From: Chryseobacterium taklimakanense
GTDB lineage: Bacteria > Bacteroidota > Bacteroidia > Flavobacteriales > Weeksellaceae
Assembly: GCF_900187185.1 (NCBI RefSeq)
Contig: NZ_LT906465.1
Location: 1,674,001 to 1,738,000, forward strand
Direction of reading: 5' to 3'
DNA: 64,000 bases
A program made the translations under genes and the position numbers. Positions 35,169 to 45,862 of this stretch are shown one piece after another (the stretch's first letter is position 1; the number at the start of each line of letters is the position of its first letter). Under the pieces are notes generated by a model. That model worked only from the letters and a program-made list of their open reading frames with translations, was not told where the DNA came from and made no database searches.

Positions 35169-35198
35169 ACCATTCAGTCAAAAAAAACTACCGTTCAG
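35169..35198 (+). promoter_or_regulatory. LytTR-type binding site before the TonB receptor gene
   Basis: Direct repeats ACCATTCAG (35169-35177) and ACCGTTCAG (35190-35198), start-to-start 21 bp. This matches the published LytTR pattern of two 9-bp repeats with a 12-bp gap. The -7 element TACTTTTG (35232-35239) lies 42 bp after the second repeat start. Confidence 0.7.
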
Positions 35199-35231: not shown

Positions 35232-35239
35232 TACTTTTG
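35232..35239 (+). promoter_or_regulatory. -7 promoter element for the TonB receptor gene
   Basis: TACTTTTG matches TAnnTTTG and lies 20 bp before the ATG at 35259. Confidence 0.6.
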
Positions 35240-35258: not shown

Positions 35259-37469
35259 ATGAAAACACACTTCGCGAAAATCTGCTTTCTATTCCTGGTA
35301 ATGGCTTCTGTAGCCGGTGTGGCTCAAATAAAGATTTACGGGAAAGTTTCCTTCAAAGGAAAAGGCCTCAAAGACATCAACGTAACCCTTAAAAACACTT
35401 ACGACGGCGCAACAACCGATGAACAGGGAAACTATTCTTTTGAAACTTCGGAAAAAGGCAGCCAGACTTTGGTTTTTTCGCATCCGAAATATGTAGAGGT
35501 TGAAGAAAACATTACCATCGGAAACCACAATATTGAGAAAAATACTACGCTAAGAGAAAGCATCAGCGAAATTGATGCCGTGGTGATTACAGCCGGCGCG
35601 ATAGAAGCGAGCGACAAAAAACGGGCAACGGCAATTCTTTCGCCAATTGATATTTACACCACCGCCGGAGCCGACGGACAAATTTCTGCAGCACTGAATT
35701 ATCTTCCCGGAGTGCAGAAAGTAGGGGAGAGCGAAGGTTTATTCATCCGTGGCGGCAGCGGAACCGAGTCCAAAATCTTTATGGACGGCAGTTTGGTAAA
35801 CAATTATTTCTCGAATTCCGTGCCGGGAATTGCCGGGCGCGACCGTTTTAATACATCATTGTTCAAAGGAAATATTTTCTCAAGCGGCGGATATTCTGCA
35901 CTTTACGGGCAGGCGCTTTCCGGTGTGCTGATTTTGGAAAGCGTGGATCTGCCGGAGACAAGTTCGTATGATTTTGGGGTCTCGCCGATATTTTTAAGCG
36001 GAAGTTTTCAGAAATTAACTCAGAATAAGAATGCGTCTTTCGGGACGAGTTTAAGCTATTTCAATATGGAACTGGTGCAGAAAATCTTCAATTACAATAC
36101 CGATTTTGTTACGGCTCCCCAAGGTTTTGACGGCGATTTTAATTTCAGAATTAAAAATAAAAAAGGTGGCTTCCTAAAATATTATGGAAATTTCGACCAT
36201 TATAAAATGGCGGTGCAAAACGAAAGTCTGGAACCGGAATTCGATTTCAGCAAAGTAAATCTGAATTCAGCCAACACATCGCACAACCTTTCTTTCCGTC
36301 AAAAATTCGGTAAATATTTGCTGAATGTTGGCACGTCTTATTCTTACAACACAACCGACATAGGATTTTCAACTATTGAGAATAACGTGGAGTCTCCGGT
36401 AAATTCTATTAAAAAGGATGATAATTATGTGAATTTCAAAACTGTATTAGAAAGGAAAATCAACAAGATCAGTGCAGTTCGCGGAGGCTTCGAACTGAAT
36501 CATGCCTCGGAAAAAACGGATTTCGGGAATTTCAATAAACTTTATAGAGACCTTATCTCATCAGCATTTGCAGAAACAGATTTGGGATTCAGCAATAATC
36601 TTTCAGCAAAATTAGGTTTAAGGGCTGAACATTCTTCTTACTTCGAAAAAACCAATTTAGCGCCGCGTCTGGCGTTGGCATACCGCCTTTCCCCAAAGTG
36701 GACGAGTTCCCTCGCTTACGGAATTTTCTACCAAAATCCGGAGAGCAAATATCTGAATTCACCTGCGTCGTTAAGTTTTCAGAAAGCCGAACATTATATT
36801 TTTCAACTTCAGAGAAATTCGGAAGGCAGAAGTTTGAGGCTGGAAGCTTTTTACGAAGATTATAAAAATCTTGTAAAAACAGAAGGAAACCACGAATTTC
36901 AGACGGCAATTAGTAACAGTGGAAAGGGCTATGGAAAGGGGCTTGAGTTATTTTGGAGAGATAAAAAAACGATCAAAAATATTGATTATTGGCTGAGTTA
37001 TTCTTACCTGGATTCCAAACGAGATTATTTAAACTATCCGGTAAGTTTGAAACCGGGCTTTGCTTCGGAACACACGCTTTCGGCTGTGGCCAAAAAATTT
37101 GTAACCAATTGGAAAACAGGATTTAATCTTTCATACACTTACTCGAAGGGCCGTCCTTATTATGATATTGTTTCGCAGAACGGAGATAATATCATTCGCA
37201 ACGAAGGTCGGCTAAAAGATTATAACGCACTGAATTTCAGTTTAAATTACCTGCCGAATTTAGGCAAAAAGGATTCCAAGGCGTTTACCGTTTTGGTGTT
37301 GAGCATATCAAATATTTTAGGGAATAAAAACGTTTACGGCTATAATTTTTCCAATGACGGCTTGCGCAGTTCCGCAGTAGTTCCGCCGGTGAACACGTTT
37401 GTTTTTCTGGGTGCTTTCATCAGTTTCGGAGTGGATAAAACAAATGAGGCAATTAATAACAATCTATAA
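35259..37469 (+). CDS. TonB-dependent receptor with carboxypeptidase-like regulatory domain
   Basis: Outer-membrane receptor of 736 residues with a signal peptide (MKTHFAKICFLFLVMASVAG). Residues about 25-100 form a carboxypeptidase-regulatory-like domain (IYGKVSFKGKGLKDINVTLK). The plug follows with ...GAIEASDKKRATAILSPIDI and EGLFIRGGSGTESKIFMDGS, then a 22-strand-type barrel of alternating hydrophobic residues. No SusD gene is near, so it is probably not a polysaccharide system. The ligand is unknown. A LytTR-type site precedes its promoter, like those before the next secreted-protein gene and the 2TM operon, so it is likely controlled by the LytTR regulator at 40663. Confidence 0.9.
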   Translation: MKTHFAKICFLFLVMASVAGVAQIKIYGKVSFKGKGLKDINVTLKNTYDGATTDEQGNYSFETSEKGSQTLVFSHPKYVEVEENITIGNHNIEKNTTLRESISEIDAVVITAGAIEASDKKRATAILSPIDIYTTAGADGQISAALNYLPGVQKVGESEGLFIRGGSGTESKIFMDGSLVNNYFSNSVPGIAGRDRFNTSLFKGNIFSSGGYSALYGQALSGVLILESVDLPETSSYDFGVSPIFLSGSFQKLTQNKNASFGTSLSYFNMELVQKIFNYNTDFVTAPQGFDGDFNFRIKNKKGGFLKYYGNFDHYKMAVQNESLEPEFDFSKVNLNSANTSHNLSFRQKFGKYLLNVGTSYSYNTTDIGFSTIENNVESPVNSIKKDDNYVNFKTVLERKINKISAVRGGFELNHASEKTDFGNFNKLYRDLISSAFAETDLGFSNNLSAKLGLRAEHSSYFEKTNLAPRLALAYRLSPKWTSSLAYGIFYQNPESKYLNSPASLSFQKAEHYIFQLQRNSEGRSLRLEAFYEDYKNLVKTEGNHEFQTAISNSGKGYGKGLELFWRDKKTIKNIDYWLSYSYLDSKRDYLNYPVSLKPGFASEHTLSAVAKKFVTNWKTGFNLSYTYSKGRPYYDIVSQNGDNIIRNEGRLKDYNALNFSLNYLPNLGKKDSKAFTVLVLSISNILGNKNVYGYNFSNDGLRSSAVVPPVNTFVFLGAFISFGVDKTNEAINNNL

Positions 37470-37493: not shown

Positions 37494-37523
37494 ACGATTC
37501 AGTGACGAAATTTGACGGTTCAG
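37494..37523 (+). promoter_or_regulatory. LytTR-type binding site before the helical secreted-protein gene
   Basis: ACGATTCAG (37494-37502) and ACGGTTCAG (37515-37523), start-to-start 21 bp. The -7 element TATCTTTG (37558-37565) lies 43 bp after the second repeat start. Confidence 0.7.
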
Positions 37524-37557: not shown

Positions 37558-37565
37558 TATCTTTG
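37558..37565 (+). promoter_or_regulatory. -7 promoter element
   Basis: TATCTTTG matches TAnnTTTG, 36 bp before the ATG at 37601. Confidence 0.55.
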
Positions 37566-37600: not shown

Positions 37601-38245
37601 ATGAAAAGATTATTCCTTGCTGCGGCTGTTGCAGCATCTACAGTGTTCGGGTTTGCACAGACCAAATTCGAAACAGCAATGACCGAAAAAGTCGCCAAAA
37701 TTGAACAGCATTTGAAAACAGACGAATTCCAAGCGCTTTCTAATGATTTCACCAGAATCGGAAATGCTGAAAAAACACAATGGCTGCCGTATTACTACGC
37801 CGCATTTGCCCAAATCCAGAAAGGAAGAATTTTGATGCGCGAACAGAAAATGTCGGAACTGGATGCTGTTGCATCTGAAGCACAAAAATCCCTGGACAAA
37901 GCCATGGAATTGAGTAAGGATAATGCCGAACTGTTCATTCTTCAAAAGATGATTCACAACCTGAAAATGATGGTGAACCCAATGGAACGCTATATGACGG
38001 AAGGCGCTCTGGGCGCCGAAAATCTCGCCAAGGCCGAAAAACAGGATCCCGCCAATCCAAGAATTACCTTACTGAAAGCAGAAGATACCTATTTTACGCC
38101 AGAGCAGTTTGGCGGAAGCAAATCCCAAGGTCTGGAACTTTTCCAGAAAGCACTGGAGCAGTTTAAAATTTACAAAACAGCATCACCACTTCATCCAAAC
38201 TGGGGAAAAGCGGAAGCGGAGTATTTCCTGGCACAGAAACCGTAA
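37601..38245 (+). CDS. Secreted helical-repeat (TPR-like) protein of unknown function
   Basis: Protein of 214 residues with a signal peptide (MKRLFLAAAVAASTVFGFAQ). The mature part is helical, with TPR-like segments such as EKTQWLPYYYAAFAQIQKGR, LDKAMELSKDNAELFILQKM and a terminal GLELFQKALEQFKIYKTASP. A role as binding or scaffold protein in the periplasm is an inference. It follows the TonB receptor by 130 bp but has its own promoter with a LytTR-type site, and ends at a strong hairpin terminator, so the two belong to one regulon rather than one operon. Confidence 0.82.
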   Translation: MKRLFLAAAVAASTVFGFAQTKFETAMTEKVAKIEQHLKTDEFQALSNDFTRIGNAEKTQWLPYYYAAFAQIQKGRILMREQKMSELDAVASEAQKSLDKAMELSKDNAELFILQKMIHNLKMMVNPMERYMTEGALGAENLAKAEKQDPANPRITLLKAEDTYFTPEQFGGSKSQGLELFQKALEQFKIYKTASPLHPNWGKAEAEYFLAQKP

Positions 38246-38266
38246 CGAAGCCAGTTTAACATGATG

Positions 38267-38294
38267 AACGGGCATTTTTCGCCCGTTTTTTCAT
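38267..38294 (+). terminator. Rho-independent terminator
   Basis: AACGGGC-atttttc-GCCCGTT stem followed by TTTTTC, 21 bp after the stop of the secreted helical protein gene. Confidence 0.85.
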
Positions 38295-38323: not shown

Positions 38324-38353
38324 ACCATTCAGTCTACAAAAAATACGGTTCGG
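38324..38353 (+). promoter_or_regulatory. LytTR-type binding site before the 2TM operon
   Basis: ACCATTCAG (38324-38332) and ACGGTTCGG (38345-38353), start-to-start 21 bp. The -7-like TACCTTTA (38388-38395) lies 43 bp after the second repeat start. This suggests autoregulation of the operon that encodes the LytTR regulator. Confidence 0.65.
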
Positions 38354-38436
38354 TAAAGAACAGTTGGCTTTGGGTTTTGCGCTGAACTACCTTTATATCA
38401 TCAAAATCAAATCAATAATTAAAAATTTTAAAATAA

Positions 38437-38721
38437 ATGGAAACATGCAGCAATAGTGAAAAACTTGAACGTGCAAAAAGAAAAGTGAGAAGAATTAAAG
38501 GATTTTACATTCATGCTCTGGTTTATCTGCTTGTAAATCTGTTCATTATATTTAGCAATGGATTTGCAGAAAAGAATGGATTTGCAGATATGGACTCTTA
38601 CTACACAGCGATTTTGTGGGGGTTTGGATTGTTGGCGCACGGACTTACGGTTTTTGGATCGCAGATGATTCTGGGTGACGATTGGGAAGAAAGAAAAATT
38701 AGAGAAATGATGAACAAATAA
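38437..38721 (+). CDS. 2TM domain-containing protein
   Basis: Small membrane protein of 94 residues, first gene of a five-gene operon. It has a basic amphipathic lead (LERAKRKVRRIKGFYIHALV), two transmembrane helices (VYLLVNLFIIF and AILWGFGLLAHGLTVFG) and the closing motif DDWEERKIREMMNK. The PF13239-type 2TM domain is common in flavobacteria but has no established function. Four copies of it occur in this operon. The start METCSNSEK follows an AT-rich leader. Confidence 0.88.
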   Translation: METCSNSEKLERAKRKVRRIKGFYIHALVYLLVNLFIIFSNGFAEKNGFADMDSYYTAILWGFGLLAHGLTVFGSQMILGDDWEERKIREMMNK

Positions 38722-38758
38722 AGCGTTCTTTTCCTATTTTTAATCGGTAAAAATTCAT

Positions 38759-40090
38759 ATGAACAGAAAATTTTTCAGCACATTAATCTGGGTTTCATTT
38801 GGAATCAGCATTTTCATATTTGCTTTTTCCAATGGTGAGAAAACCTTGACAAACGCTTTACTGACCTTCGGAATCACAGTGATGTATACCCTCGTCATTG
38901 GAGTGGGAAACGGATTAGTGAATGATTTTCTGAGCAGGAAATTTTCCTGGGTTGAGCAAACCAGAACACGTGTCATCTACGGCATTATCGGCACAGTGCT
39001 GGCTAACGTGATCCTGGTTTTCTTCTGTAATTATATCAATTTCATAGTAATTCAGGGAAGTGATCCCACGAAGTTCTTCAGCGGAAATATGGGAATTTTT
39101 AATTGGATTACCGTGAATATCTCTCTGTTGGTTTCGGCCATTCTCCACGCCAAAAGTTTTATGGAAGAATGGAAAAAATCTGCGAAAAAAGAGGTAGTGG
39201 AACAGAAACTCATTGCAAAATCTGCCAACGCCCAGTTTGAAACCTTAAAAAATCAACTCGATCCGCATTTCTTGTTCAATTCTTTAAATGTTTTAAGTTC
39301 ATTGATTGATGAGAATCCAAATCACGCCCAAAGGTTTACGTCCTCAATGTCAAAGATATACCGTTATGTTTTGGAGCAAAAGGATAAAGAATTAGTTACG
39401 GTAGAAGAAGAGCTGGATTTTGCAAAAACCTATTGCGATTTGCTGAAAACAAGGTTCGAGGACAGCGTTAACTTTGAGTTTGAAGTGAATGAACAAGATC
39501 GAAAAGGTTTCGTCGTTCCGTTATCGCTACAGTTATTGCTGGAAAACTGCATCAAACACAATTTTGCCACATCCGTAAAACCCTTGAATATCAGAATTTT
39601 CTCAGAGAATGGATTTCTGTGCGTTGAAAATAACCTGCAACAAAGAGAAGTCAGCAAAGACCGTGAGGGAATCGGACTTTCCAATATTGTGCAGCGCTAT
39701 GCACTGATTACCGACCGAAATGTCTTCATCGAAAAATCTGAACAAAATTTCAAAGTAAAAATACCTTTACTCACCGAAAAAATAAACCTAATGACTACAC
39801 AAAATGCCACCAGTGAACAAATGGCTTACGAAAAAGCCGCAAAAAGAGTAGAAGAACTCAAAGGTTTTTACGGAAATCTGATCTCCTACTCTATTTTTAT
39901 TCCTTTCTTATTCCTGATTAACTGGAAGACGTCGCCCAATTACTGGTGGGCATTTTGGCCGATGTTGGGTTGGGGCATCGGTGTGATTTCGCATGGGATT
40001 AAAACGTTCGGAATTAGCAGCGATTGGGAAGAACGCCAAATCCGTAAGTATATGCAAAAAGAAGAAGAAAACGCCAAAAAATGGAGATAA
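38759..40090 (+). CDS. LytS/YehU-type sensor histidine kinase with C-terminal 2TM domain
   Basis: Sensor kinase of 443 residues. The N-terminus has about four transmembrane helices (residues 6-145). The His_kinase domain has LDPHFLFNSLNVLSSLI with H170 as the likely phospho-acceptor, followed by the ATP-binding half with LQLLLENCIKHN (N box) and GIGLSNIVQRY (G box). Residues about 350-443 are a fused 2TM domain (KAAKRVEELKGFY ... SSDWEERQIRKYMQK), unusual for the LytS/YehU type. No periplasmic sensor domain is visible, so the signal may be membrane-borne or come through the 2TM part. The partner regulator is at 40663. Confidence 0.9.
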   Translation: MNRKFFSTLIWVSFGISIFIFAFSNGEKTLTNALLTFGITVMYTLVIGVGNGLVNDFLSRKFSWVEQTRTRVIYGIIGTVLANVILVFFCNYINFIVIQGSDPTKFFSGNMGIFNWITVNISLLVSAILHAKSFMEEWKKSAKKEVVEQKLIAKSANAQFETLKNQLDPHFLFNSLNVLSSLIDENPNHAQRFTSSMSKIYRYVLEQKDKELVTVEEELDFAKTYCDLLKTRFEDSVNFEFEVNEQDRKGFVVPLSLQLLLENCIKHNFATSVKPLNIRIFSENGFLCVENNLQQREVSKDREGIGLSNIVQRYALITDRNVFIEKSEQNFKVKIPLLTEKINLMTTQNATSEQMAYEKAAKRVEELKGFYGNLISYSIFIPFLFLINWKTSPNYWWAFWPMLGWGIGVISHGIKTFGISSDWEERQIRKYMQKEEENAKKWR

Positions 40091-40092
40091 TC

Positions 40093-40392
40093 ATGGAAAA
40101 TAAGCAAAAACACGAGGAAATGCTTTATAAAAAAGCACAGAAAAGGGTGAAGGAAATTTCAAACTTTTACTGGTTTGTAGCCGGTTATATTATTGTTGCA
40201 ATCGTGCTGCTTTTCACGGATTACAGCAAAAATATTTTTAATTTTAATAGCGAATACATTGTTTATATGTTGATTCTGCAGGGAATTTTTCTTTTGGGTT
40301 ACGGCATTTACCTGTTTGTACCCCGACTGCACAATTGGGAAGAACGTAAAACAAGGCAACTTATGGAAAAATACAAAAACAATGGAAAATAA
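40093..40392 (+). CDS. 2TM domain-containing protein
   Basis: Protein of 99 residues from MENKQKHEEM; an ATG at 40081 would overlap the kinase stop and is less likely because the sister genes also begin with MEN or MET. KAQKRVKEISNFYWFVAGYI, a second helix (YMLILQGIFLLGYGIYLFV) and HNWEERKTRQLMEK define the 2TM module. It is the most divergent of the four copies. It overlaps the next gene by 11 bp. Confidence 0.85.
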   Translation: MENKQKHEEMLYKKAQKRVKEISNFYWFVAGYIIVAIVLLFTDYSKNIFNFNSEYIVYMLILQGIFLLGYGIYLFVPRLHNWEERKTRQLMEKYKNNGK

Positions 40393-40666
40393 TATCAAAT
40401 ACGAACAAGCTAAAAAGCGGGTGAAGCAGATCAAAGGATTTTATATTCACGCAGGAGTTTTTATACTGGTAAATGTGTTTTTGGTATGCTTAAAGTTCAT
40501 GAAACATGGGCAAATCGATTTTAATGTTTGGGGAACCAGTCTTTGGGGAGTGGGACTGGCAGCGCATGGCGCATCCGTTTTCTTGCCAAATTTTTTTCTT
40601 GGAAGAAACTGGGAGGAACGCAAAATACGCGAACTTATGGATAAACAGAAAAACTTGAAACCTTGA
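40382..40666 (+). CDS. 2TM domain-containing protein
   Basis: Protein of 94 residues, from MENNIKYEQAKKRVKQIKGF with IHAGVFILVNVFLVCL and SLWGVGLAAHGASVF as helices and RNWEERKIRELMDK at the end. It resembles the first protein of the operon most closely. The stop codon TGA shares bases with the TTG start of the response regulator (TTGA). Confidence 0.87.
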   Translation: MENNIKYEQAKKRVKQIKGFYIHAGVFILVNVFLVCLKFMKHGQIDFNVWGTSLWGVGLAAHGASVFLPNFFLGRNWEERKIRELMDKQKNLKP

Positions 40667-41412
40667 ATAGAATAAAAACCATCATCATCGAAGATGAAAA
40701 GCCGGCAGCAAGAAAACTTGAACGGATTTTGAGTTTATTTCCTGATATTGAGTTGATTGCAACCATCCATTCTGTGGAAGAGGGAATAAATTTTTTTAAA
40801 AATACTCCGCATCCTGACTTAATATTTTCTGATATTGTTCTGGGCGACGGACTTTCTTTTGATATTTTTGAAAAAATTCCGACCAGAAGTTTTATCATTT
40901 ATACCACGGCGTTCGACAATTATACCCTGAAAGCCTTCAAACTGAATTCCATCGATTATCTTTTGAAGCCCATCATGGAAGAAGACTTGAGAAACGCTCT
41001 GGAAAAGTACAAATCTTTTGTGCCGCAGGAACAGCGATATAACAATTTGAATTTCAAAGAATTAATTAAAAAAGAAAAATCATGGCTTTCCAGAATTTTG
41101 GTTAAAATCGGATACAATCTGAAAGTTTTGCAAACCAATGAAATTAGTTGTTTCTACAGCGAGAACAAAATTGTGTACGCCCGGACTTCAGAACGTTCAT
41201 TTCCCACGGATTTTACTTTGGACGAACTTCAGGAAAACCTCGATGAAAGCAAATTTTTCCGGGTGAACCGCCAGTTTGTCATCAATTTAGATTTTATCAA
41301 AAACATTCACACCTCGCCGTATTACAAAGTCGAAATGCAGTTTCAGCCGGAAGAAGAAATTACCGTGAGCCGCGAACGCGTGAAGGATTTTAAGGATTGG
41401 CTGAGCAAATAA
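40663..41412 (+). CDS. LytTR-family response regulator
   Basis: DNA-binding response regulator of 249 residues. The receiver domain has acidic pair D11-E12 (IIIEDEKPAARK), phospho-acceptor D57 (LIFSDIVLGDG) and the switch lysine in LLKPIMEEDL. The LytTR domain (about residues 145-245) has ENKIVYARTSERSFPTDFTL and NRQFVINLDFIKNIHTSPYY. The only plausible start is TTG, four bases overlapping the previous stop. Direct repeats that fit LytTR sites precede three promoters close by, including that of this operon. Confidence 0.9.
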   Translation: MNRIKTIIIEDEKPAARKLERILSLFPDIELIATIHSVEEGINFFKNTPHPDLIFSDIVLGDGLSFDIFEKIPTRSFIIYTTAFDNYTLKAFKLNSIDYLLKPIMEEDLRNALEKYKSFVPQEQRYNNLNFKELIKKEKSWLSRILVKIGYNLKVLQTNEISCFYSENKIVYARTSERSFPTDFTLDELQENLDESKFFRVNRQFVINLDFIKNIHTSPYYKVEMQFQPEEEITVSRERVKDFKDWLSK

Positions 41413-41454: not shown

Positions 41455-42642
41455 TTATGAAATCACGCCACTTCCCAGCAGTTCCTCATCTTTATACCAC
41501 GCTGCAAACTGGCCTTCTGCAATGGCAGATTGTGGATTCTCAAACTCGATATAAAAAGCATTCCCGTACTGGTAAAGCGTTGCTTTCTCAAGGGGTTGGC
41601 GGTAGCGGATTCTGGCCATAACATCCATCGATTCGCCGTGTTGTAACCGCAAATCTTCACGGATCCAGTGAACCTCGGAGTTTTCTATTTTCAAGGCTTT
41701 CCGGTAGAGTCCGGGGAAATTTTTCCCTTCACCAACATAAAGGATATTGTTTTCCATATCGCGGTTGATGATGAAACAGCTTTCCTTATGGCCTCCGATT
41801 CCGAGTCCTTTGCTTTGTCCGATAGTATAATATTGTGCCCCCTGATGTTTGCCGATAACTTTTCCGTCAGATTTCCGGTATTTGATTTTAGATGAGAGAA
41901 ATTCCAACTCTTCCAGTTTTGATGAAAAAAGAGGTTTTTCTTTAGAAAATTCAACAAAATCATCAAAAATTTCTACGATTTCGCCTTCTTTTGGCTGGAG
42001 TTGCTGCTTCAGGAATTCGGGTAAACTCACTTTCCCGATGAAACACAAACCCTGCGAATCCTTTTTTTCGGCAGTTACCAAACCAAGTTCTTTGGCAATT
42101 TCCCGAACCTCCGGTTTTGTAAGCTCACCGATGGGAAAAAGGGCCTTAGATAATTGATTCTGATTGAGTTGGCAAAGGAAATAACTCTGATCTTTATTGT
42201 TGTCTTTCCCCGCAAGAAGTTGGTAAATTTCTTTTCCGTTTTCATCTTTGAAGGAGTCCAGGCGTGCATAATGTCCGGTTGCCACTTTATCCGCACCAAG
42301 CGCGAGTGCCGTTTCCAGAAAAACATCAAATTTCACCTCACGGTTGCAGAGAATATCAGGATTTGGAGTGCGGCCTTTTTCATACTCAGCGAACATATAA
42401 TCTACGATTCGTTCTTTGTAAAGTTCGCTCATATCAATCACCTGGAAAGGAATTCCCAGTTTTTGGGCTACCATCAGCGCATCATTGCTGTCTTCAATCC
42501 AGGGGCATTCATCTTCGAGGGTTACGGAAGCATCGTTCCAGTTGCGCATAAAGAGACCAACAACTTCGTGTCCCTGTTGTTGGAGGAGGTAGGCGGCAAC
42601 GCTGGAATCCACACCTCCGGAAAGTCCTACTACTATTTTCAT
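41455..42642 (-). CDS. mnmA: tRNA 2-thiouridine(34) synthase
   Basis: Uses ATP and persulfide sulfur to thiolate U34 of Lys, Glu and Gln tRNAs, 395 residues. The PP-loop is [17 protein letters not shown], the catalytic cysteines are in [12 protein letters not shown] and [16 protein letters not shown], and the family segment [10 protein letters not shown] is present. MnmG, the partner modification enzyme for the same wobble base, lies in the same window. An insertion of about 20 residues ([19 protein letters not shown]) lengthens it compared with E. coli (368). Confidence 0.95.
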
Positions 42643-42762
42643 ATTTTGGCTACGCTTTCGTTAAGGGAAAGTTTTGCGCTGCAAATTTACGGATTATTAT
42701 TTCTTTAAAGCCTTTAGATTGTGGTACAGAATTCGCTGATGCCATCAATAAAGTCATTTATG

Positions 42763-43308
42763 ATGAAAAAATTATTGTTTCTCTCTTCAATATTCTCATT
42801 TACAGTAAGTTTTGCACAGATCGGAACATCTTTTCCTTCAACAAAAACAAGCAATGAAGAAACCAGATGGACGTTCGGTGGATATGCCGGTTTGGGCGGA
42901 GCATTCGGAACTGGCGGCGGCATCGCACTTTATGTGACGCCGAGAGTTGGTTATAAAGTCGCAGAAAATTTCGAAGTGGGTATGGCGACCAATCTTAACT
43001 GGCAGAACTCTAAATATTATTCTTCCTCGACTTTGGGAGTTGGACCCTTTGCCAACTATTATTTTGGCAGAAGCTTTTACCTGAGCGGAATGTTTCAGGA
43101 ATATTTCTATTCTCAGAAAGATAAAGTGAACGGATTAAAATATAATGGCAATGAAGCTGCTCTTTACTTAGGCGGTGGTTATATGCAAAGACTAGGTGAT
43201 AAAGTCTATATGCAAATCGGCGGGATGTATAATGTTTTGTACAAAAAGGATCAATCCATTTTTGGCGGCGGATTCATCCCGAATGTGGGAATTGTTTACG
43301 GGCTTTAA
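42763..43308 (+). CDS. Outer-membrane beta-barrel-type protein of unknown function
   Basis: Protein of 181 residues from MKKLLFLSSIFSFTVSFAQI, a signal peptide with FAQ cleavage; a frame extension upstream lacks signal character. The mature part alternates aromatic and polar residues (TRWTFGGYAGLGGAFGTGGG, ENFEVGMATNLNWQNSKYYS, NYYFGRSFYLSGMF) and ends in GIVYGL, which is the pattern of a small eight-stranded outer-membrane barrel (OmpW/PorT-like). The role is unknown. Confidence 0.78.
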   Translation: MKKLLFLSSIFSFTVSFAQIGTSFPSTKTSNEETRWTFGGYAGLGGAFGTGGGIALYVTPRVGYKVAENFEVGMATNLNWQNSKYYSSSTLGVGPFANYYFGRSFYLSGMFQEYFYSQKDKVNGLKYNGNEAALYLGGGYMQRLGDKVYMQIGGMYNVLYKKDQSIFGGGFIPNVGIVYGL

Positions 43309-43330
43309 GCAAAATCAAACAAAAAATAAG

Positions 43331-43364
43331 GCCGCCTCACAACAGTATAAGCGGCTTTTTTGCT
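43331..43364 (+). terminator. Rho-independent terminator
   Basis: GCCGC(CTCAC...)GCGGC stem followed by TTTTTTGCTTTTTT; carries the CTCAC motif of the terminator family. Confidence 0.75.
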
Positions 43365-43452
43365 TTTTTCTCGAGCTTGTGATCAAGTGAGATTTTCGTT
43401 GAGACGACCCTCAGCCTATAAACATTTGCTTTTAGGATATTTCTTTAATTTT

Positions 43453-43644
43453 TTACATCATCGAAAGATATTCTACGCCGTGATGTTCTTCGTTTCTATT
43501 ATCTTTTCTGCAAAAATGCCTGTGGTAGTCGTGATATTCGTCGTGATAATCAGTGTTGCTCAATATTCTTCTCAGTATAAAGAAGCCCACAGCAGCCAAT
43601 AAGCCGGCTGCCCCTGCTACCAATACTCCTGTTTCTTTTTTCAT
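43453..43644 (-). CDS. Small membrane protein with a His-rich tail
   Basis: Sixty-three residues from MKKETGVLVAGAAGLLAAVG; a longer frame upstream is not supported. One glycine/alanine/leucine-rich transmembrane helix is followed by the charged, histidine- and tyrosine-rich tail DYHDEYHDYHRHFCRKDNRN and then EEHHGVEYLS. Such a tail could bind metal, which is speculation. It has no recognised family. The gene lies alone between convergent and divergent neighbours. Confidence 0.6.
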   Translation of the reverse strand: MKKETGVLVAGAAGLLAAVGFFILRRILSNTDYHDEYHDYHRHFCRKDNRNEEHHGVEYLSMM

Positions 43645-43726
43645 ATAGATTAATTTGTAGGGTTTTATAAACAAAATATGTTCCGTTTATGGTTAGCGGT
43701 ATTTTAAATTTTGTTAAAAAATTGCT

Positions 43727-43734
43727 TAAATTTG
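43727..43734 (+). promoter_or_regulatory. -7 promoter element for the S9 peptidase gene
   Basis: TAAATTTG matches TAnnTTTG, 16 bp before the ATG. Confidence 0.5.
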
Positions 43735-43750
43735 GGAAAAATCAGTAGAA

Positions 43751-45862
43751 ATGAAGATTAAATCACTAATTCTTTCCACAGGAGTTTTGTTTCTGGCCTC
43801 CTGTGCCACCCAAACAATGAACCAAAAGTTTACTTATCCCGAAACCAAAAAAACGGAGCAAAGCGATGCCTACTTTGGTGAAAACGTGTCAGATCCATTC
43901 CGTTGGCTGGAAGATGATATGGCTGCCGACACCAAAGACTGGGTGCAGCGGCAGGTTGCTTTTACCAATGATTATTTAGCAAAAATTCCTTTCCGCGACC
44001 AGATTCGCCAACAGTTGCAAAACATCTGGAATTACGAAAAATTAGGTTCCCCTTTCAAGGAAGGAGATTATACCTATTTCTACAAAAACGATGGTTTACA
44101 GGCCCAGTCCGTGCTTTACAGAACAGATAAAAACGGTAACACCGAAGTGTTCCTCGATCCGAATAAATTTTCCAGTGACGGAACCACTTCACTTTCCGGA
44201 GTATCATTTAATAAAAAAGGAAACCTTGCAGCTTACAGAATATCTGAAGGCGGCAGCGACTGGAATAAAATCATCGTGATGGATGCCATTACGAAGAAAG
44301 TTATTGACGTCACTATTGAAAACGTAAAATTCAGCGGCCTTTCATGGAAAGGTGAAGAGGGTTTCTATTATTCAAGTTACGATAAACCAAAGGGCAGTGC
44401 TCTTTCTGCAAAAACTGATACCCACAAGGTTTACTATCACAAACTGGGGACACCTCAGACAGAAGATCAACTGATCAGCGGCGGCGAAAATTTTAAACGA
44501 AGATATCTCGGCGCAGGTCTTACCGATGACGAAAGGTTTTTGATCCTGAGTGCTTCTAATGCAACGAGCGGAAACGAACTCTACATTAAAGATCTTAAAA
44601 ACAATACCGATTTCATTCCGGTTCAGCAAGGTTATGATTATAACACCAGCGTTGTAGATTCCAAAGGTGATGAAGTTTTTATGATTACCGATAAAAACGC
44701 ACCGAATCAGAAGTTGGTAAAAATGAATATCAGGAAACCAGGAGTTTGGACGGACGTTATTCCTGAAACCGATAATGTTTTAAGCGTAACTACCGGTGGT
44801 GGATACCTTTTCGCAAAATATATGAAAGATGCGGTTTCATACGTAAGACAAATGACTTATGACGGAAAGCTGGTTCGCGAGATCGCACTTCCCGGTCAGG
44901 GAACCGCGGGAGGATTTAGCGGAAAAGCTGAAGAAAAAGATCTTTATTATTCATTCAGCAATTATGTGATGCCGGGAACAATCTACAAGTATAACGTAGA
45001 CAGCGGAAAATCAGAAGTTTATTACAGACCGAATGTAAAATTCAACCCAGAAAATTATGTTTCCGAGCAGGTATTCTACACTTCGAAAGACGGAACTAAG
45101 GTGCCGATGATGATTTCATATAAAAAAGGACTGAAGAAAGACGGGAAAAATCCGACAATCCTATATTCGTACGGCGGTTTCAATATCAGTTTGCAGCCGG
45201 GCTTCTCCGTAGTTAATGCAATCTGGATGGAAAACGGCGGAATTTACGCAGTGCCAAACATCAGAGGTGGTGGAGAATATGGTAAAAAATGGCACGACGC
45301 CGGCACCAAACTTCAGAAAAAAAATGTGTTCAACGACTTCATCGCAGCCGGAGAATATCTTCAGAAAAACGGTTACACTTCACCACAATTCATGGCAATT
45401 TCCGGTGGATCAAACGGCGGGCTTCTGGTTGGTGCAACCATGACGATGCGTCCTGACCTGGCAAAAGTTGCCTTGCCTGCGGTTGGCGTTTTAGATATGC
45501 TTCGCTATAACAAATTTACAGCTGGCGCCGGCTGGGCATATGATTACGGAACCGCTGAAGACAGCAGGGAAATGTTCGAATATCTGAAATCCTACTCGCC
45601 ACTTCATAATGTTAAAAAAGGTGTTTGCTATCCTTCTACCATGGTTACCACAGGTGATCACGACGACAGGGTAGTGCCGGCACATTCATTCAAGTTCGGT
45701 GCGGAACTCCAGGACAAACAGAGCTGCAGCAACCCGGTTTTATTGAGAATTGAAACCAAAGGCGGCCACGGTGCAGGGAAATCCACAGAACAGCAGATTA
45801 ATGAAAATGCTGATAAACTGAGTTTCACACTTTACGAAATGGGTTTCAAAAGCCTGAAGTAA
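43751..45862 (+). CDS. Prolyl oligopeptidase family serine peptidase (S9, lipoprotein)
   Basis: Periplasmic or surface peptidase that cuts after proline in short peptides, 703 residues. The signal peptide ends with a lipobox (FLASCATQ). The N-terminal propeller begins DPFRWLEDDMAADTKDWVQR, typical of S9A. The catalytic triad is S554 (ISGGSNGGLLV), D638 in GDHDDRVVP and H673 in GGHGAG. The C-terminal hydrolase has YSYGGFNISLQPGFS and NIRGGGEYGKKWHDAG. All residues for activity are present. A terminator of the GTCTCAC family follows. Confidence 0.92.
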   Translation: MKIKSLILSTGVLFLASCATQTMNQKFTYPETKKTEQSDAYFGENVSDPFRWLEDDMAADTKDWVQRQVAFTNDYLAKIPFRDQIRQQLQNIWNYEKLGSPFKEGDYTYFYKNDGLQAQSVLYRTDKNGNTEVFLDPNKFSSDGTTSLSGVSFNKKGNLAAYRISEGGSDWNKIIVMDAITKKVIDVTIENVKFSGLSWKGEEGFYYSSYDKPKGSALSAKTDTHKVYYHKLGTPQTEDQLISGGENFKRRYLGAGLTDDERFLILSASNATSGNELYIKDLKNNTDFIPVQQGYDYNTSVVDSKGDEVFMITDKNAPNQKLVKMNIRKPGVWTDVIPETDNVLSVTTGGGYLFAKYMKDAVSYVRQMTYDGKLVREIALPGQGTAGGFSGKAEEKDLYYSFSNYVMPGTIYKYNVDSGKSEVYYRPNVKFNPENYVSEQVFYTSKDGTKVPMMISYKKGLKKDGKNPTILYSYGGFNISLQPGFSVVNAIWMENGGIYAVPNIRGGGEYGKKWHDAGTKLQKKNVFNDFIAAGEYLQKNGYTSPQFMAISGGSNGGLLVGATMTMRPDLAKVALPAVGVLDMLRYNKFTAGAGWAYDYGTAEDSREMFEYLKSYSPLHNVKKGVCYPSTMVTTGDHDDRVVPAHSFKFGAELQDKQSCSNPVLLRIETKGGHGAGKSTEQQINENADKLSFTLYEMGFKSLK

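Follow-up and report, generated by a model that had tools for sequence, protein, structure and literature searches.

Gene content of the locus

The window, i.e., the whole 64,000-nt stretch of Chryseobacterium taklimakanense DNA that was analysed, carries a compact operon of five genes. All features described here lie on the forward strand and are numbered from the first nucleotide of the window. The operon starts with a stand-alone 2TM protein gene, 2TMa (38437..38721), followed by a LytS-type histidine kinase gene with a C-terminal 2TM tail (38759..40090), two further stand-alone 2TM protein genes, 2TMb (40081..40392, start at 40081 or 40093) and 2TMc (40382..40666), and a LytTR response regulator gene (40663..41412, TTG start at 40663). 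This five-gene arrangement had been proposed in a first-pass annotation, and every gene was present as placed. Its overlaps, i.e., 11 bp between 2TMb and 2TMc and 4 bp between 2TMc and the regulator gene, were right as well, and the kinase and 2TMb genes overlap by 10 bp if 2TMb starts at the ATG at 40081.

In Pfam search, PF13239 was found in all four 2TM modules (E 1e-25, 8e-27, 5e-11 and 3e-26), with scores of 42.8-93.6 bits against the curated cut-off of 24.8 bits. 2TMa, with a TM1 histidine (His26) and a TM2 histidine (His68), and 2TMc, with both histidines, were assigned to the partner class. 2TMb scored 43 bits versus 90-94 bits for the other modules and lacks both conserved TM histidines, i.e., it belongs to a divergent class. 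The motifs described earlier as shared by all modules, KxxKRVxxIKGFY and WEERKIRxLM, held strictly in 2TMc only; 2TMa and the kinase tail vary, and the 2TMb version reads KRVKEISNFY...WEERKTRQLM.

The AlphaFold model of 2TMa is a two-helix hairpin (pLDDT 84). Fold search with this hairpin gave no significant match (best E 2.6), and in profile search against PDB the best hit was V-ATPase subunit e at only E 0.4. Literature searches on PF13239, or on 2TM together with LytTR, returned nothing relevant, and no described function was found for PF13239. The "2TM" of a PSP paper is a generic term.

The kinase was recognized as His_kinase (PF06580, E 2e-24). Its motifs DPHFLFNSLN, which holds His170, LLLENCIKHN and GIGLSN are present, the N and G boxes of the ATPase domain are intact, and His170 is invariant in 49 sequences. 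The protein is laid out as four N-terminal TM helices, His170, the ATPase domain, a flexible linker and the 2TM tail (aa 358-432, nt 39830-40054), which was identified by both Pfam and the model. The AlphaFold model shows the four N-terminal helices, the kinase core, a low-confidence linker at residues 343-350 and the tail hairpin (pLDDT 83, pTM 0.45), with most of the protein predicted to be intramembrane and the loops short. The regulator is composed of receiver (PF00072, E 1e-9) and LytTR (PF04397, E 3e-21) domains, with Asp57 and Lys102 both present. It is the only intact LytTR protein of the genome. One decayed LytTR fragment (C1:205383 of the same genome) has no receiver domain and contains an in-frame stop. 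The core of the operon is an ordinary LytS/LytTR system, and its unusual part is the membrane subunits.

Upstream of the operon, a TonB-dependent receptor (TBDR) gene (35259..37469, 736 aa, CarboxypepD_reg and Plug domains by Pfam) and a gene for a HusA-like secreted TPR-like protein (37601..38245, 214 aa) were found; both are predicted regulon members. The HusA-like protein was assigned by its match to Porphyromonas gingivalis HusA (PDB 6bqs, E 1.9e-28, 34% identity), whereas a sequence search of PDB with the receptor gave no match. In 20 of 20 further loci across the phylum, a TBDR gene immediately precedes the HusA-like gene. No HusA-like genes were found on plasmids. Many Flavobacteriales loci keep one order, i.e., TBDR, HusA-like gene, an optional 2TM gene, 2TM-tailed kinase, a variable number of 2TM genes and regulator, and outside Flavobacteriales the same cassette occurs without any 2TM gene. 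A secreted-protein gene, DUF2141 (PF09912), is often added in Flavobacteriaceae (26 loci), either between the receptor and HusA-like genes or before the kinase gene. It is absent from the C. taklimakanense genome.

P. gingivalis HusA/HusB is a haem uptake system (PMC6173696), and as in that system the HusA homologue here lies directly downstream of a TBDR. The groove positions F80, L123, V124, W130 and Y164 of HusA are R, M, V, Y and F in the window protein, and most relatives have Gly at W130 and Y164, so the porphyrin-groove residues are not kept across the family. Because of this, and because the P. gingivalis hus genes were reported not to be regulated by iron or haem (PMC10913741), haem as the ligand is possible but a lead only. 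The pair at this locus also differs from HusA/HusB in its predicted control by a LytTR system.

Downstream of the operon (41455-45862), mnmA, an outer-membrane protein gene and a prolyl oligopeptidase-like gene were found. mnmA lies close to the operon in many Weeksellaceae relatives.

Predicted operator and regulon

Each of three units at the locus (receptor gene, husA-like gene and 2TM/kinase operon) is preceded by a LytTR-type direct repeat, ACMRTTCRK-N12-ACMRTTCRG (9-12-9 bp). The receptor copy, ACCATTCAG-N12-ACCGTTCAG (35169..35198), is followed by the -7 box TACTTTTG (35232-35239) at a gap of 33 nt. Before the husA-like gene, the repeat ACGATTCAG-N12-ACGGTTCAG (37494..37523) is followed by TATCTTTG (37558-37565), and before the operon ACCATTCAG-N12-ACGGTTCGG (38324..38353) is followed by TACCTTTA (38388-38395), both at a gap of 34 nt. 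TAnnTTTG is the -7 consensus of Bacteroidota promoters. Strong repeat pairs always had a period of 21 bp, though 18-26 bp was allowed, and when a 45-nt range was searched, a TAnnTTTG-like element stood at a gap of 33 or 34 nt in 69 of the 78 best matches. A sigma-70 promoter scan was uninformative, as expected for Bacteroidota. Between the husA-like gene and 2TMa lies a terminator-like hairpin (38266..38288), which is in line with separate promoters for the two units. The argument here is the position of the hairpin, since such hairpins are no rarer or commoner than chance (6 found versus 6.6 expected in shuffles).

The consensus was first read from the window and its relatives, and p-values for these sequences are therefore not independent of it; the genome-wide uniqueness and the sites in trans given below are independent of its derivation. 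In the whole genome (2.76 Mb), 12 sites with at most two mismatches were detected, nine of them inside reading frames and three intergenic. The three intergenic sites are exactly the three repeats of the window described above. The exact composite element was then matched 11 times in 16 genomes (approximately 57 Mb), versus 0 matches for a reversed-pattern control, and all 11 matches precede genes of the 2TM/kinase/receptor system, as judged by translation or coordinates; among them are HusA-like/TBDR genes at a distance from the kinase operon. These matches fall in five of the 16 genomes, and the others have imperfect sites only.

In four genomes (G066, G125, G155 and G008), the receptor gene, the HusA-like gene or both are remote from the kinase operon and still have the element, which argues that control works in trans. 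In G066 and G125, the operon copy precedes a DUF2141 gene that heads the kinase operon. Many Flavobacteriaceae operons have no good site directly before the kinase gene; this would follow if their transcription starts at the TBDR, DUF2141 or HusA-like promoter.

LytTR activators bind 9-bp repeats with a 12-bp spacer approximately 10 bp before the -35 element (PMC6193735). The predicted operator has the same geometry, with its 9-bp repeats and 12-bp spacer approximately 10 bp before a -35-like element, and activation is therefore preferred over repression. The shared operator and the upstream receptor and HusA-like genes, all overlooked in the first-pass annotation, together indicate what the system is predicted to control: activation of the TonB receptor gene, of the husA-like gene and of its own operon is very probable.

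Distribution and classes of the 2TM modules

By sequence comparison, the operon is far beyond chance and is kept in dozens of genera, among them Chryseobacterium, Flavobacterium, Tenacibaculum, Polaribacter, Winogradskyella, Maribacter and many others. Among 40 genomes (the C. taklimakanense genome and relatives), 15 have at least one PF13239 gene. Each of the 15 also has the kinase operon, in which 45 of the 47 PF13239 modules are located. The 2TM genes of Flavobacteriales are thus not mostly far from LytTR systems. The functional tie of 2TM modules to the kinase put forward in the first-pass annotation agrees with the relatives: none of their genomes has a 2TM gene unless it also has the kinase-2TM operon. 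Across a phylum-wide sample, the operon contains 49 of the 57 Flavobacteriales modules, and the remaining eight, a separate 2TM lineage, adjoin or are fused to a gene reading as dihydrofolate reductase. Outside Flavobacteriales, 2TM genes are single and mostly away from the operon (12 of 13), so that, as far as these samples reach, PF13239 as a family is not tied to LytTR systems alone.

The folA-like-linked lineage has a member in the C. taklimakanense genome itself (locus L049, 3887-4294, i.e., C1:2268988). Its 2TM gene stands directly before the folA-like gene in eight of eight cases, and in two genomes the two are fused.

Of 71 sampled loci, 69 have the 2TM tail as part of the kinase, and the two exceptions are one genome sampled twice. 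In that genome (locus L041, 7656-7877), an in-frame TAA just inside the 2TM domain separates the tail from the kinase, and the next ORF encodes the remainder of the tail fused to another 2TM module. This split could be natural or an assembly or sequence error. Outside Flavobacteriales, a free 2TM gene under a separate LytTR box is followed by an untailed kinase and a LytTR regulator in locus L160, which is a plausible intermediate.

The number of stand-alone 2TM genes per complete operon varies, i.e., none in 6 operons, one in 11, two in 20, three in 17, four in 7, five in 4 and six in 3. A fixed stoichiometry, which had been suggested from the overlapping genes, is not supported by a count of 0-6, and some 2TM genes carry their own LytTR promoter. 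The six complete operons without any stand-alone 2TM gene indicate that the partners are dispensable for some kinases. In three Chryseobacterium operons, a gene for an isoprenylcysteine-methyltransferase-like membrane protein lies between 2TM genes and is followed by another LytTR-type promoter.

The 2TM classes were compared in 243 modules. The TM1 histidine is present in 5 of 5 first-position and 56 of 65 last-position stand-alone modules versus 4 of 70 kinase tails, which have Asn or Ser at this position in 65 of 70 cases. The TM2 histidine occurs in approximately 80% of all 2TM classes. In the tree, which was built from 80-residue alignments and has modest support values, kinase tails and some middle genes group together and last-position partners fall mostly outside. 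Changes between the fused and unfused state numbered 14, versus 56-67 in shuffles. Judged by sequence, the 2TM modules of kinase tails belong to another lineage than the stand-alone partners and differ from them in the TM1 residue, and at least three 2TM classes co-occur in one operon.

A proposed tunable kinase and its alternatives

The locus is best read as a two-component system that regulates itself and an outer-membrane uptake pair, with 2TM subunits tuning the kinase through its tail; the probability of this reading is put at roughly 60%. A signal would enter the membrane part of the kinase, i.e., the four N-terminal TM helices and the C-terminal 2TM tail, and alter kinase activity. After phosphotransfer, the phosphorylated regulator would bind the pair of 9-bp repeats that lies directly before the -33 element. 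It would thereby activate three units, namely the receptor gene, the gene for the HusA-like periplasmic protein and, as positive autoregulation, the 2TM-kinase-2TM-2TM-regulator operon. The stand-alone 2TM proteins are most likely membrane subunits that pair with the kinase tail and tune the kinase, a contact that we infer. Together with the tail they would form a mixed bundle of helices. A flexible linker joins the tail to the ATPase domain, so such a bundle could keep this domain close to or away from the phosphorylated histidine. Since the 2TM genes belong to the predicted regulon, a rising level of 2TM protein would feed back on the kinase.

The 2TM proteins might instead act as inhibitors in the manner of LytTR regulatory systems (LRS), holding the regulator or kinase off until a signal arrives and giving negative feedback. 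HdrRM and BrsRM (PMC6193735) resemble the present operon in a LytTR regulator co-encoded with small membrane proteins and in autoregulation, predicted here, through direct repeats of the same geometry. This analogy and the place of the 2TM genes in the predicted regulon speak for inhibition, the most credible alternative, though still a tentative one. LRS have no kinase, however, and their inhibitors come from other families, whereas this operon has a kinase and a receiver domain and its membrane proteins are PF13239; it is not an LRS, i.e., a LytTR regulator with a membrane inhibitor and no kinase.

A less probable reading makes the 2TM modules ligand sensors. The TM1 and TM2 histidines of partner-class proteins, which lie equally deep in the membrane close to its cytoplasmic side, would bind haem, porphyrin or metal, and the complex would report import of the same ligand by the TBDR/HusA-like pair. 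It draws on the TM1 histidine of first- and last-position modules and its rarity in tails, the TM2 histidine of all classes, the confidently predicted hairpin and the resemblance of the HusA-like protein to a haemophore. However, the groove residues W130 and Y164 are mostly Gly in the family and the hus genes were reported unresponsive to iron and haem. The histidine pair also occurs in 2TM proteins of unrelated context, e.g., folA-linked ones, and may be structural. The broader proposal that PF13239 proteins are receptors that bind haem, porphyrin or metal within the membrane and serve as interchangeable sensor subunits of a tail-held kinase, through which one kinase reads several ligands or states and adjusts the uptake receptor, is more doubtful still.

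Many LytTR systems answer envelope signals. Such a role, sensing of envelope or membrane stress rather than a nutrient, had been suggested earlier, and the predicted, largely intramembrane kinase with short loops would suit it. The idea found no support and is unlikely, as the predicted targets are confined to the system itself, an uptake receptor and a homologue of a binding protein, and no envelope-repair gene of the C. taklimakanense genome has a site. Least probable is that the 2TM genes are passengers, i.e., general small membrane proteins beside a tail that is a second membrane anchor without partners: copy number runs from none to six and single 2TM genes occur elsewhere in the phylum in unrelated contexts, but the relatives' 2TM genes occur only with a 2TM-tailed kinase, in L160 an unfused 2TM gene that has a LytTR box of its own stands before an untailed kinase, the tail too is a 2TM module, and two separate 2TM lineages are both kept in most operons.

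The C. taklimakanense system was compared with known ones. It shares with LytS/LytTR systems the kinase core with His170 and ATPase boxes, the receiver and LytTR domains, and 9-12-9 direct repeats upstream of the promoter. It differs in the C-terminal 2TM tail of the kinase, in up to six stand-alone 2TM genes and in its predicted targets, a TonB receptor and a HusA-like gene, which make a sharp predicted regulon. In FecA-FecR-FecI surface signalling, the genes of the regulatory unit lie beside that of the uptake receptor which the unit controls. The regulatory unit here likewise adjoins the receptor that it is predicted to control, but it is a two-component system instead of an anti-sigma/sigma pair, and a signalling role of the receptor is unsupported.

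Two other candidates were considered as relatives. P. gingivalis PG1431/1432 (FimRS) was dropped, as its regulator is LuxR-type. Flavobacterium johnsoniae FJOH_RS09515/09520 (LytTR and kinase) have adjacent locus tags with no room for 2TM genes between them and are probably another system. Five of five F. johnsoniae lines coevolved with B. thailandensis carry a mutation in this pair (PMC10197871, Table 2), a parallel hit.

The uncharacterised family PF13239 gains a concrete biological setting and a predicted partner, the kinase tail. The operator sequence, promoter geometry and regulon are now predicted and testable, and the HusA-like/TonB receptor pair, which is found across Bacteroidota, is linked to a dedicated kinase-regulator pair. 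By the distribution of its genes, this pair acquired 2TM modules in Flavobacteriales. If the proposed reading is true, a kinase core anchored in the membrane on both sides and joined by variable hairpin partners would be a new way to tune a two-component system.
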